A stretch of DNA of 64,000 nucleotides, from assembly GCA_001692895.1 (NCBI GenBank), contig KV748220.1, forward strand, positions 248,001 to 312,000, written 5' to 3'. The position numbers and the translations under genes are program-made. This DNA comes from Cenococcum geophilum 1.58. Taxonomy: Eukaryota > Ascomycota > Dothideomycetes > Gloniales > Gloniaceae. A model generated the notes under the pieces. That model was not told the DNA's origin and ran no database searches. It saw only the letters and a list, made by a program, of their open reading frames with translations. Positions 32,423 to 37,015 of this stretch are shown here, in pieces (positions within the stretch are counted from its first letter, which is position 1; each line of letters opens with the position of its first letter).

Positions 32423-32474
32423 GTAAGTATTCTCTATAGGATAATTAATATTATTCTAATATACTTATTTATAG
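32423..32474 (+). other. Candidate leader intron before the array
   Basis: GTAAGT at 32423, 'ttctaat' branch-like motif, and TTATAG ending at 32474, directly followed by the first triplet (gag) of the array. It is 52 nt long, within the usual fungal range. Not related in sequence to the 68-bp unit, so it would be an independent intron. No transcript evidence. Confidence 0.35.
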
Positions 32475-34993
32475 GAGGTAAGTAGACCTATAAACACTGA
32501 CCTGCGAGGCTGCTGCTAATAGTATTATATTTAGTAGTATAGGACGTAAGTAAACCTGCGAATACTAACCTGCGAGGCTACTACTAATAGTATTATATCT
32601 AGTAGTGTAAAAAGTAAGTAGACCTATAAATACTAACCTATGAGGCTGCTACTAATAGTATTATATCTGGTAGTATAGGACGTAAGTAAACCTATAAACA
32701 CTAACCTATAAGGCTGCTGCTAATAGTATTATGTCTAGTAGTGTAGGACGTAAGTAAACCTATAAACACTAACCTATAAGGCTGCTGCTAATAGTGTTAT
32801 ATCTAGTAGTGTAGATAGTAGGTAGACCTATAAATACTAACCTATAAGGCTGCTGCTAATAGTATTATATCTAGTAGTATAGATAGTAAGTAGACCTATA
32901 AATACTAACCTATAAGGCCGCTGCTAATAGTGTTATATCTAGTAGTATAGGAGGTAAGTAGACCTGCGAATACTAATTTACGAGGCTGCTGCTAATAGTA
33001 TTATATCTAGTAGTGTAGACGGTAAGTAGACCTGTAAATACTAACTTATAAGGCTGCTGCTAATAGTGTTATATCTAGTGGTGTAGTATATAAGTAGACC
33101 TACAAACACTAACCTGCGAGGCTACTACTAATAGTGTTGTGTCTAGTAATATAGGAGGTAAGTAAACCTACAAATACTAACCTATAAGGCTACTGCTAAT
33201 GGTGTTATATCTAGTAGTATAGGACGTAAGTAGACCTGCAAATACTAACCTATAAGGCTGCTGCTAATAGTATTATATCTAGTAGTATAGCTAATAAGTA
33301 GACCTGCGAACACTAACCTACGAGGCTGCTGCTAATAGTATTATATCTAGTAGTATAGGAGGTAAGTAGACCTGTAAATACTAATCTGTAAGGCTGCTGC
33401 TAATAGTATTATATCTAGTGGTATAGACGGTAAGTAGACCTATAAACACTAACCTATAAGGCTGCTGCTAATAGTGTTATATTTAGTAGTATAGGAGGTA
33501 AGTAGACCTGCGAATACTAACCTACGAGGCTGCTGCTAATGGTGTTGTGTCTAGTAGTGTAGATGGTAAGTAGACCTATAAATACTAACCTGCGAGGCTG
33601 CTGTTAATAATGTTATATATAGTAGTATAGGCGGTAAGTAGACCTGCAAATACTAACCTGCGAGGCTGCTATTAATAGTGTTATATTTAGTGGTGTAGGA
33701 GGTAAGTAGACCTATAAACACTAACCTACGAGGCTGTTGCTAATGGTATTGTGTCTGGTAGTGTAGGACGTAAGTAGACCTACAAATACTAACCTACAAG
33801 GCTGCTGCTAATAGTATTATATTTAGTAGTATAGAAGGTAAGTAGACCTACGAACACTAACCTACGAGGCTGCTGTTAATAGTGTTGTGTTTAGTAATGT
33901 AGGTAGTAAGTAGACCTATAAATACTAACCTATAAGGCTGCTATTAATAGTGTTATATTTAGTGGTATAGATAGTAAGTAGACCTATAAATACTTACCTA
34001 TGAGGCTACTACTAATAGTATTATATCTAGTGGTGTAGGACATAAGTAGACCTATAAATACTAACCTATAAAGCTGCTGTTAATGGTGTTATATTTAGTA
34101 GTATAGAAGGTAAGTAGACCTGCAAACACTGACCTATAAGGCTGCTGTTAATAGTATTATATCTAGTAGTATAGGTAGTAAGTAGACCTGTAAATACTAA
34201 CCTATAAGGCTGCTGCTAATAGTGTTGTATTTAGTGGTGTAGATGGTAAGTAGACCTATAAATACTAACCTACGAGGCTGCTGCTAATAGTGTTGTATTT
34301 AGTGGTGTAGGACGTAAGTAGACCCGCGAATACTAACCTACGAGGCTGCTGCTAATAGTATTATGTCTAGTAGTATAGGACGTAAGTAGACCTGCAAATA
34401 CTAACCTACGAGGCTACTGCTAATAGTATTATATCTAGTAGTATAGGACGTAAGTAGACCTACAAACACTGACCTGCGAGGCTGCTACTAATAGTATTAT
34501 GTCTAGTGGTGTAGTTTATAAGTAGACCTACAAATACTAACCTACGAGGCTGCTGCTAATGGTATTATGTCTAGTGGTATAGCCGGTAAGTAGACCTGTA
34601 AATACTGACCTACGAGGCTGCTGCTAATGGTATTATATCTAGTAGCGTAGTATATAAGTAGACCTACAAACACTGACCTACGAGGCTGCTGCTAATAGTG
34701 TTATGTCTGGTAGTATAGGATGTAAGTAGACCTGTAAACACTAACCTGCGAGGCTACTGCTAATGGTGTTGTGTCTGGTGGTGTAGGACGTAAGTAGACC
34801 TGCGAATACTGACCTGCGAGGCTGCTGCTAATAGTGTTATGTTTGGTAGTATAGCCGGTAAGTAGACCTATGAACACTGACCTGCGAGGCTGCTGCTAAT
34901 AGTGTTGTGTTTGGTGGTATAGGACGTAAGTAGACCTGCGAGCACTGACCTGCGAGGCTGCTGCTAATGGTGTTGTGTCTGGCGATGTAGCGG
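32475..34993 (+). repeat. Array of 37 exact 68-bp units: intron-like sequence plus one variable triplet
   Basis: Unit starts (GTAAG, mutated to ATAAG in five) fall at 32478 + 68n for all n from 0 to 37 (34994); no unit has an insertion or deletion. Each 65-nt core begins GTAAGTAGACC, carries 'actaacc' or 'actgacc', then 'gctgctaat', and ends '(t)atag' or 'gtgtag', which is the layout of a fungal spliceosomal intron. The cores differ almost only by C/T and G/A transitions. The 3 nt between the final AG and the next GT are different: 15 distinct triplets among 38 (GAC 11, GAG 6, ATA 3, others 1-2), with transversions, and no stop codon. Eighteen of 38 encode Asp or Glu. The units nearest the HET gene are least RIP-mutated. 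It is followed without a gap by a normal-looking intron and the HET coding frame. Confidence 0.9.
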
Positions 34994-35055
34994 GTAAGTG
35001 TACCGCGGATTGCTCCTATATGTGACCGCTAGAACTAATAACAATTTGGAAGTAG
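34994..35055 (+). other. Candidate intron joining the array to the HET exon
   Basis: Shares GTAAGT with the array unit but then diverges ('gtaccgcgg'). Branch-like 'actaataac' and AAGTAG ending at 35055; 62 nt. Phase-0 removal joins the last triplet (CGG) to TAC at 35056, which is exactly the HET reading frame. Inference; no RNA evidence. Confidence 0.5.
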
Positions 35056-37015
35056 TACAATGATTGGTATCTCGATTTCAACGATTCCTTTGCAAGAGGC
35101 TTCTACGCAGATTTTCCATCGCGTGCGCTACCTGCCACAGTGCACTGTTGTCCCTGCTGCAGCACCTTTCTAGATAATGCTATTGGGGGTGCTGCTTATA
35201 AGGCTAGCCTTTCCGATCTATGTACTTCTGCGGAAAGCTGTTCGGTCTGCGGAATGCTTCTCCGAGCATTTAAGCACTGCCGCAATGATAATAACGGAAA
35301 TATCGTCGTAGAGCGAATAAGCTCGGCACTTAGGGCAGGAATAGGAGGCCCGCGCCTTTTGCGGTTTTGTATGGATCCAGGTTAGTGTGTATAACTCCTC
35401 TTATGCATTGGACAGAAACAATACTAATTGCATATCTTTGCTATAGAATACGCTGTTTACACTAATTATAACACCCTAATCGGCCTCCCAATTCAACCTG
35501 AACCTGATAACTATGTATGATTTGCACTGCTTTGCGCATGGCTTCGTTGGTGCGATAAGTCCCACGACTGTAATAAGCACCAAGGTGAATCGAAGATAGC
35601 ATTGCCAACAAGAGTCCTCTACGTTGGTGATCTAAACGATTTGGGTTATAGTTCAGATTTTATATGTCTGGTTTGTGCCTTGGAAACAAACAGGTAGGAA
35701 TACATCGCATTATCTCACTGCTGGGGCAACCTCTCAGTCGAAAAGAAGAAAGGGTACTGCATAACACAGGACAATATTAGCCAACGGCTGGAAGGATTTA
35801 GTCTCTCTGAACTACCGAAGACTTTCCAAGACGCTGTTAAAGTGACCCGAGAACTTGGCGTCCCATACCTCTGGATCGACTCTCTCTGCATCATCCAATA
35901 CGAGGACAATGATGAGGACTGGAAACGCGAATCTGTCCAAATGGAAGCCGTCTTTTCGGCAGCTTATTGTACAATCGCTGTAACTGCGGCTGTCGACTCT
36001 AACGCAGGGTTCTTAGAGCGGGACGTAAACCCTAAGTCTGTCTATGTTCAAGATACCTTAGGCAAGCAGTTCTATATCAGCGCCGATATAGATGATTTTG
36101 ACAGCGATGTGGCCAAGGCTTAGCTCAATATGCGAGCATGGGTAATGCAAGAAGGGGTTTTAGCGCGACGGACTATCCACTTCAGCGCCAATCAGATATA
36201 CTGGGAGTGTGGGAAAGGGGTTTACTGCGAAAACCTTACTAGGCTGGAAAGGTACGAGCTCTACAAGACCTAAATTAAAACGCTCCTAACTAGACATCTT
36301 TCTCATCAGCAAATTTGAGAAAAAGCACTTTACGCTCGATCCAAACTTCCTAAGTTGGCTTATTGGATTAGGCAGGGAGCGTACCACGAGGTTCATTTAC
36401 TTTCTCTTTGAAGACTACTCGAAGCGGGACCTTACAGTCGAAACCGACAGATATGTTGTAATATCTGGGTTACAGAATCGTATTGCAGGCGCTTTAGGAT
36501 GTTAAAGCAGATACGGTGTCTTCTAGAAGTCCCTTTACAGGAATCTCCTCTGGCGGCCGTCTGATAATAAAATAAAGAAGATTCTATACAAAACCTAGCA
36601 TATGCCATTGTGGTCATGGATGGCATATAGTGGAGGCATTCAGTTTATAAAAATCCCTTACAGCAAAGTTGACTGGATTAATAACCTCCGGTTTAATAAA
36701 GAGCGTAAATAGGCACTAGTTACCAACCTAGGAGGTTTCAGGTACTGTATGATGGAACCGGATGGGAAACAGTATGCTATCTTGGATTTTAGTGGAACGA
36801 ATAGAGGCTGGGTATAGTACGATGTTGAGGACGGCGAAGATATTTGTAAAGAATAATGTGTTGTTGTAAAAAGGACGAGGAATAGTAATGTTGAGAAGTA
36901 CTATGTACTAGTTATCAGGCTGACCAGTATGGATGGTAAGTATGGGAGGGTTGGAGTTGGGCTGATTCAGAGTGGCTGTGTACTGAGATAAGAAACTAAC
37001 GTGCGAGTAGTGTGA
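35056..37015 (+). pseudogene. HET-domain protein, RIP-inactivated
   Basis: HET domains trigger cell death in fungal heterokaryon incompatibility. Coding reads from 35056 ('YNDWYLDF') with a Cys-rich start ('CCPCCSTFLDN', 'SCSVC'). An intron at 35381-35446 (GTTAGT, actaatt, CTATAG) keeps the frame. Then the HET core: 'EYIALSHCWG' (~35,700), 'LGVPYLWIDSLCIIQ' (~35,850), 'DWKRES' and 'AYCTIAVTAA', 'RAWVMQE' and 'ANQIYWECG'. The C-terminal part ('GLQNRIAGALG', 'WSWMAYSGGIQF', 'LVIRLTS') is the usual tail of this family. Breaks: TGA at ~35,518, TAG before the YIALSH motif, TAG at 36121, TAA at ~36,271, a one-base frame change between 36,265 and 36,305, and later TAA/TAG codons. End at TGA 37013-37015 (or TAA 36989). 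An ATG at 35060 is in the wrong frame, so the true start lies upstream, in or beyond the array. Confidence 0.85.

Follow-up and report, generated by a model that had tools for sequence, protein, structure and literature searches.

In the NWD gene family of Podospora anserina (het-d, het-e), WD40 repeats are homogenised and a few codons are hypervariable (PMC1805685). Schistosoma micro-exon genes carry many very short exons in series (3-81 bp), for which splicing-based diversity has been proposed (PMC10526429). Ultra-short exons also occur singly: a 1-nt exon is spliced in an Arabidopsis gene, where intron definition and stepwise removal have been proposed (PMC4674806), and in Fusarium CYP621A (PMC12940212); a 3-bp exon is reported from Drosophila homothorax (PMC7392893) and a micro-exon from Trichoderma Xlr2 (PMC11121469). 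Fungal introner-like elements form families of near-identical introns in unrelated genes (PMC4457414). Here we describe a tandem array of 68-bp units that precedes a HET-domain (heterokaryon incompatibility type) gene in a 64,000-nt stretch of the Cenococcum geophilum 1.58 genome (contig KV748220.1, positions 248,001 to 312,000; hereafter the window). Each unit comprises a 65-nt intron-like core and a single triplet, and the sequence makes it probable (roughly 0.7) that the array forms the 5' coding region of the HET-domain gene, its single-codon exons spelling a hypervariable N-terminal segment.

Judged from the available parts of these papers, the arrays resemble the NWD family in that both involve fungal HET-related genes, homogenised tandem repeats with hypervariable codons (here, if the triplets are codons) and members damaged by repeat-induced point mutation (RIP). 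However, the Podospora repeat is an uninterrupted coding unit with four selected codons, whereas 65 of the 68 bases of the array unit are intron-like and leave one codon; the 68-bp unit is no WD40 repeat, being intron-like and not a multiple of 3 in length. With the Schistosoma genes the arrays share very short exons in series, known here at the DNA level only, where 851 of 887 gaps between neighbouring cores measure 3 nt (26 of the genome stretches examined, which we cite by L numbers; L035-L037 not included). The Schistosoma genes have long introns and varied exon sizes, whereas the array exons would all be one codon and their introns are copies of one unit. The isolated ultra-short exons indicate that the spliceosome, fungal included, can join across exons of <3 nt, although they are single exons and not arrays of variable ones. 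Introner-like elements are likewise families of near-identical introns, but they lie in unrelated genes, whereas the cores described here are in tandem and, in the genome stretches examined, mostly in one gene family. Among the open-licence papers listed, as searched by titles and the starts of abstracts, none describes a tandem array of single-codon exons; subject to confirmation from cDNA, the arrays would be a new architecture.

RESULTS

The window array and its relatives in the genome

Tandem Repeats Finder (TRF) reported an array of period 68 with 36.8 copies and a score of 2973. The array is real: it occupies positions 32478 to 34993 on the plus strand, where 37 cores of 65 nt alternate with triplets and keep strictly to a 68-bp grid (the first unit starts at 32478, the last at 34926, and no step deviates from 68 bp), and stands in phase 0 before the HET-domain gene, its last codon being CGG (34991-34993). 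An earlier note, made from the letters of the window, had described 65-nt cores with single triplets in frame with a HET gene, and in this it was right. Its count of 38 starts on the grid holds for 37 units; position 34994 opens a different, final intron of 62 nt (34994 to 35055, donor GTAAGT, acceptor TAG) that has only GTAAGT and a few bases in common with the core and lies at the same place in paralogues. The intron-like flanks that the note saw on both sides of the array are conserved in paralogues, and the phase-0 join of the array into YNDWYLDF was borne out, with a similar stretch near the protein start of the relatives P0003 and P0060. The cores are less uniform than the note had it. 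Rather than all beginning with GTAAGTAGACC, five of the 37 start with ATAAGT (AT for GT) and one with GTAGGT, and position 8 is A in four; TAG, given as the end of every core, ends 36 of them but not the remaining one. All 37 cores carry a branch-like TAA at positions 40-42, which would be an in-frame stop in any retained core.

The pattern TAGNNNGTAAGTAGACC had 300 exact matches in the genome compared to 0 for a reversed-pattern control, which excludes a chance origin of the unit. The same kind of exact pattern had no match in viral_contigs or genome_contigs, collections of viral and prokaryotic DNA that are little informative here. A 223-base array stretch gave 401 DNA matches in the 177-Mb, 162-contig genome, about 150 of them among the matches listed, and by profile search 28 of the 29 genome stretches examined contain units, the exception being L034 (a single 17-base match), with none at E 0.01. 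The genome thus holds at least 28 arrays (window included, L017 and L018 counted as one) with 972 units of usable length; this sample leaves out further listed matches, such as C80:616k, C43:827k and C39:1255k. When we searched downstream by tblastn with HET protein queries, 20 of 25 arrays tested had a HET paralogue within 3 kb, that of L017 being reached through its continuation L018. None was found up to 3 kb downstream of L010, L016, L024 (cut by the contig end), L027 or L032. Of the 36 gaps that do not measure 3 nt, 14 lie in the worn array L026 and four in L017, and three are long interruptions. A 13-unit array with little RIP lies at L036:691-1582; its unit 4 carries 8 extra nt inside the core, and the codon is still 3 nt. 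The NCBI protein P0075 from C. geophilum matches the L020 translation by eye and ends at the in-frame stop of L020.

Codon-like variation in the triplets

Variation in the window is distributed very differently over the two parts of the unit: 244 transitions and 2 transversions in 2405 core bases vs. 18 transitions and 36 transversions in 111 triplet bases. Across the 24 arrays with at least 10 clean units (825 units), transversions per site came to 0.0127 in cores and 0.364 in triplets, while transitions stood at 0.106 in both. The core transversion rate ranged from 0.000 (L022, L036) to 0.057 (L017), and in L036, where RIP is slight, the contrast was 0.000 in cores vs. 0.333 in triplets. Differences among cores are thus mostly RIP-like transitions, and the triplets carry the transversions.

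The third base of the triplets carries a signature of the genetic code. Within an array, the purine/pyrimidine split at the third base, which alters the amino acid in NAN boxes but not in fourfold boxes, occurred in 28 of 55 NAN boxes vs. 5 of 83 fourfold boxes (p 1.6e-9, a value that overstates independence, as the arrays are paralogues). Because all NAN boxes have one second base in common, we controlled for the second base by shuffling third bases within array and second base, and the 254 codon types observed fell below the shuffled 271.2 +/- 3.2 (minimum 260 in 1000 shuffles). Codon choice is also uniform: with C and T pooled, the same-codon fraction was 0.77-1.00 in 22 arrays of at least 15 words (as we call the triplets), compared to 0.547 in 549 codons of the L020 HET exons, where 40-codon windows had a mean of 0.54 and a maximum of 0.78. 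The variation in the triplets is therefore not blind to reading frame and codons, as that of a minisatellite would be.

Peptides spelled by the arrays were long enough for comparison in 25 of 29 cases (L018, L032, L033 and L037 were dropped); among the 300 pairs scored, of which the best 40 were shuffled, only L020-L024 gave convincing homology, with an ordered word block of 18 aligned residues (z 5.3, 0 of 300 shuffles). At the best offset, 12 of 24 words agree, and between units 13-20 and 27-34 eight consecutive words are the same while each pair of cores is separated by 4-9 transitions and 0-2 transversions; over that time, then, the words have behaved as inherited modules. Within arrays, the 5 percent of core pairs that are most alike were set against all pairs for 13 of the 28 arrays. 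Such pairs had a common word at roughly double the overall frequency or above in L009, L017, L020 and L035, and at about the random frequency in the other nine. We read this as homogenisation of the cores with diverse codons retained, in the manner of the Podospora WD40 repeats (PMC1805685), and a targeted mutation process may lie behind the triplet variation.

A conserved first exon and two further one-codon exons

The earlier note had overlooked coding parts upstream of the array, namely a 36-nt exon at 32331-32366 and a one-codon exon at 32420-32422. We aligned and parsed 24 upstream loci with a parser that demanded 3-nt exons A and B; 20 parsed fully and L032 partially, and L011, L015 and L021 did not parse. 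In parsed copies, intron 1 (52-55 nt) separates exon 1 from a first triplet, and intron 2 (44-53 nt) separates this triplet from a second. Exon 1 comprises 36 nt before the donor and starts with ATG (5) or ATA (13) in 18 of the 20 fully parsed copies; the exceptions are the window, with GTA, and L031, with 9 extra nt in frame. L037 likewise has 3 extra nt in frame (both insertions were read by eye), while intron lengths vary freely. Exon B is GAA in 19 of 21 parsed copies, and in the three unparsed copies the triplet preceding the first recognised core is TCT, GGA or ATA. In the alignment of parsed copies the gaps fall in the introns, with no length difference within triplets A and B; the sole insertion at these triplets (7 nt) is in the unparsed L021.

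The least damaged exon 1, that of L033, reads ATG GGC CAA GAA ACA TGG GAG GAT AGC TTG TTC CAG, or MGQETWEDSLFQ. The Lepidopterella protein P0019 starts MGAEKWKDSSFQ, equal to the L033 exon at 8 of 12 residues, and runs straight into YDGWEHTF of the HET exon. From this match, the array lies in phase 0, after the first coding exon and before the HET exon. To judge from its protein sequence, the Lepidopterella relative would either have no array or have one hidden inside an intron. N-terminal protein searches returned 2 and 5 proteins; in none of them do array-like residues separate exon 1 from the HET exon. Two HET relatives known as proteins only have N-termini of array-like composition: P0006, from a 2.1-kb contig, with MVQDRDRVVRYEER before YNNW, and P0105 (MNNYGQEYYHYRERES).

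RIP damage in the array family

Nearly half of the donors (484/972) are no longer GT, nearly all by RIP. AT donors come after a triplet ending in T in 469 of 478 cases, and GT is retained in 361 of 376 units that do not follow T; RIP accounts for the dead donors. The least damaged copies include L033 (C7:3467k) and L009 (C4:1237k). L033 and L036 show no altered donor after T (0/3 and 0/4) and no stops in their 18 inner words. A GT donor and a TAG acceptor are present in all units of L036 (13) and L033 (7), although the last intron of L033 starts with GC, and the full set of GT, AG and a CTRAY where it is expected survives in 425 of all 972 units.

The window copy and its neighbourhood

In the window, all on the plus strand, the RIP-damaged first coding exon of 12 codons (32331-32366, aligned with paralogues) is followed by intron 1 (32367-32419, 53 nt, GTAGGC...TAG), one-codon exon A (AGG, 32420-32422), intron 2 (32423-32474, 52 nt) and one-codon exon B (GAG, 32475-32477, parsed against paralogues), the two introns around exon A being unrelated to the array core. 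Beyond the array and last intron lies the RIP-damaged HET-domain gene (35056 to 37012), with introns near 35381 and 36252 by eye. Its HET domain (PF06985, 35698-36123) scored E 6.8e-26 and 91.8 bits, well above the curated cut-off of 22.5. The window copy does not appear to be a working gene: its exon 1 starts with GTA and contains TAG, 5 of 37 array donors are dead, and the tblastn alignment of P0019 from 35056 to about 37012 holds 13 stops, introns included. It is a RIP-damaged relic.

Tail to tail with this gene, tandem 126-bp WD40 repeats (PF00400) lie at 37846-38659 on the minus strand (open reading frame [ORF] 37962-38429). Further on, at 39517-41100 (minus strand), are pieces that by eye resemble a HET-NACHT-WD40 gene; three pieces were negative in Pfam. 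Elsewhere in the window are three arrays of 135-bp repeats (4804-6379, 14393-16027 and 24550-26307; 45 codons if coding) that look by eye like fungal TPR repeats, the third without an ORF of at least 60 aa. An AT-rich block at 57434-59470 contains 11-bp repeats such as TAGAATATATT (GC about 0.22 in 58001-60000).

DISCUSSION

The idea of an N-terminal peptide assembled from single-codon exons, raised in the earlier note, has gained in part: the triplet transversions, the third-base signature of the genetic code, the uniform codon choice and the conserved exon 1 with two extra one-codon exons all favour it. Besides the kinship of the arrays, several observations weigh against it. When the second base was held to G or T, split boxes (6/23) exceeded fourfold boxes (5/68) weakly (p 0.027), and the G and T columns alone were not significant (p 0.17 and 0.09). 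The third base follows the second base within an array, and non-coding inheritance of suffixes could partly mimic the codon pattern. The lowest array in codon uniformity (L015, 0.77) overlaps the highest ordinary-exon 40-codon window (0.78), and hydropathy blocks reached 0.05 in only 4 of 19 arrays. P0019 joins exon 1 straight to the HET exon, and nine relatives whose start reaches that exon have only 1-30 residues before it. There was no intact copy among those assessed: in L020 the HET exons contain one stop, the array is RIPed and the contig ends before the upstream part; in L033 exon 1 and the array are intact, but by eye a deletion has put the HET exon out of frame; in L036 the array is clean, but no exon 1 can be recognised upstream. 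Finally, stops make up 35 of 983 words in phase 0, where about 29 were expected from column shuffles, and the +1 reading has fewer (21/929; the +2 reading has 146/929).

Since stops are at or above the shuffled expectation and the +1 reading is lower, the counts by themselves give no support to phase 0. Avoidance of stop codons failed as a proof of coding, and RIP must be invoked. The stop words comprise 15 TAA, 16 TAG and 4 TGA, compared to 12.8, 8.9 and 7.3 expected; the 31 TAA and TAG words would be the expected RIP products of CAA (3 left) and CAG (0 left), while the 4 TGA count against the coding reading. RIP makes the stops tolerable to a coding model but is no proof of it.

The main rival is that everything between exon 1 and the HET exon leaves as one composite intron, the array being a minisatellite from a duplicated intron with untranslated triplets; splicing as one unit was also among the alternatives of the earlier note. 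The P0019 join, the stop words no rarer than expected and the 484 donors lost almost entirely to RIP all fit such removal, and the frame is kept if every unit is skipped. Nevertheless, we consider it unlikely. It accounts neither for the concentration of transversions in the triplets nor for the third-base pattern, and it does not explain why an array writes nearly every amino acid with a single codon or why two more one-codon exons stand among unrelated introns; the P0019 join is known from protein sequence alone.

Alternatively, the array could be a non-coding repeat, either regulatory DNA or RNA, in which the triplet varies for reasons unrelated to codons, by targeted mutation or by inheritance of two-base suffixes. 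The words do look as if the first base could vary freely before a small set of two-base suffixes peculiar to each array, and entire columns change their third base from one array to another (GGT/CGT in some, GGA/CGA in others). In 9 of the 13 arrays compared, the most similar cores were about as likely as random pairs to have a word in common. On the other hand, codon structure persists in the second-base-controlled shuffle, L017 has TGG where 21 of 22 other words with that second base end in T, and paralogues preserve the phase to the exons on either side. We regard a non-coding repeat as improbable.

More improbable still is the insertion of introner-like elements at successive codon boundaries of an older exon, with the triplets as its original codons. 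The cores are near-identical and intron-like, and introner-like elements have been reported in Dothideomycetes (PMC4457414, in part). However, intron insertion into an ordinary exon is disfavoured by array codon choice, which lies near one codon per amino acid and is more uniform than that of the L020 HET exons, and the copies found are tandem arrays, mostly with a HET paralogue downstream. A product of chance or a simple, random minisatellite, which the earlier note had offered as a non-coding alternative, was rejected on the TRF array, the pattern control, the concentration of transversions in the triplets and the third-base signature.

If the triplets are single-codon exons, each 68-bp unit would be one 65-nt phase-0 spliceosomal intron plus one codon, and once the cores were spliced out, a string of single-codon exons would link the 12-codon start exon to the HET exons. 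The resulting N-terminal segment would be about 8 to 100 residues long and almost wholly different between paralogues. Exchange or duplication between units would keep the cores similar, selection at the protein level would keep the codons diverse, and RIP damage to most copies would have come later. We infer transcription, per-unit splicing, selection and a recognition role from the anatomy, family, frame, codon-like statistics and RIP damage observed here. Because neighbouring splice sites are 3 nt apart, splicing would have to proceed intron by intron; the reported splicing of 1-nt exons in Arabidopsis and Fusarium, as far as the available parts of those papers go, makes the joining of 3-nt exons one by one possible. 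The frame would survive the skipping of any number of units, since each adds exactly one codon. A bolder extension, possible but doubtful, is a codon-cassette system: a recognition protein with one codon per intron-carrying cassette, the cassettes being shuffled and homogenised until hardly anything but the codon varies, and any subset being joined in frame by way of identical splice sites. One gene could then yield very many N-terminal variants within and between individuals.

Were the triplets spliced, these arrays would take small exon size to its extreme on a large scale, with 925 inner words over 28 arrays, and a protein segment would be carried wholly by single-codon exons. This would challenge models of splice-site recognition, and gene finders would be expected to hide the region in one long intron. 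The array genes belong to a class that fungi use for self/non-self recognition, and the arrays would give such genes a new route to a hypervariable protein region, with the diversity held in codons and the homogeneity in removable introns.

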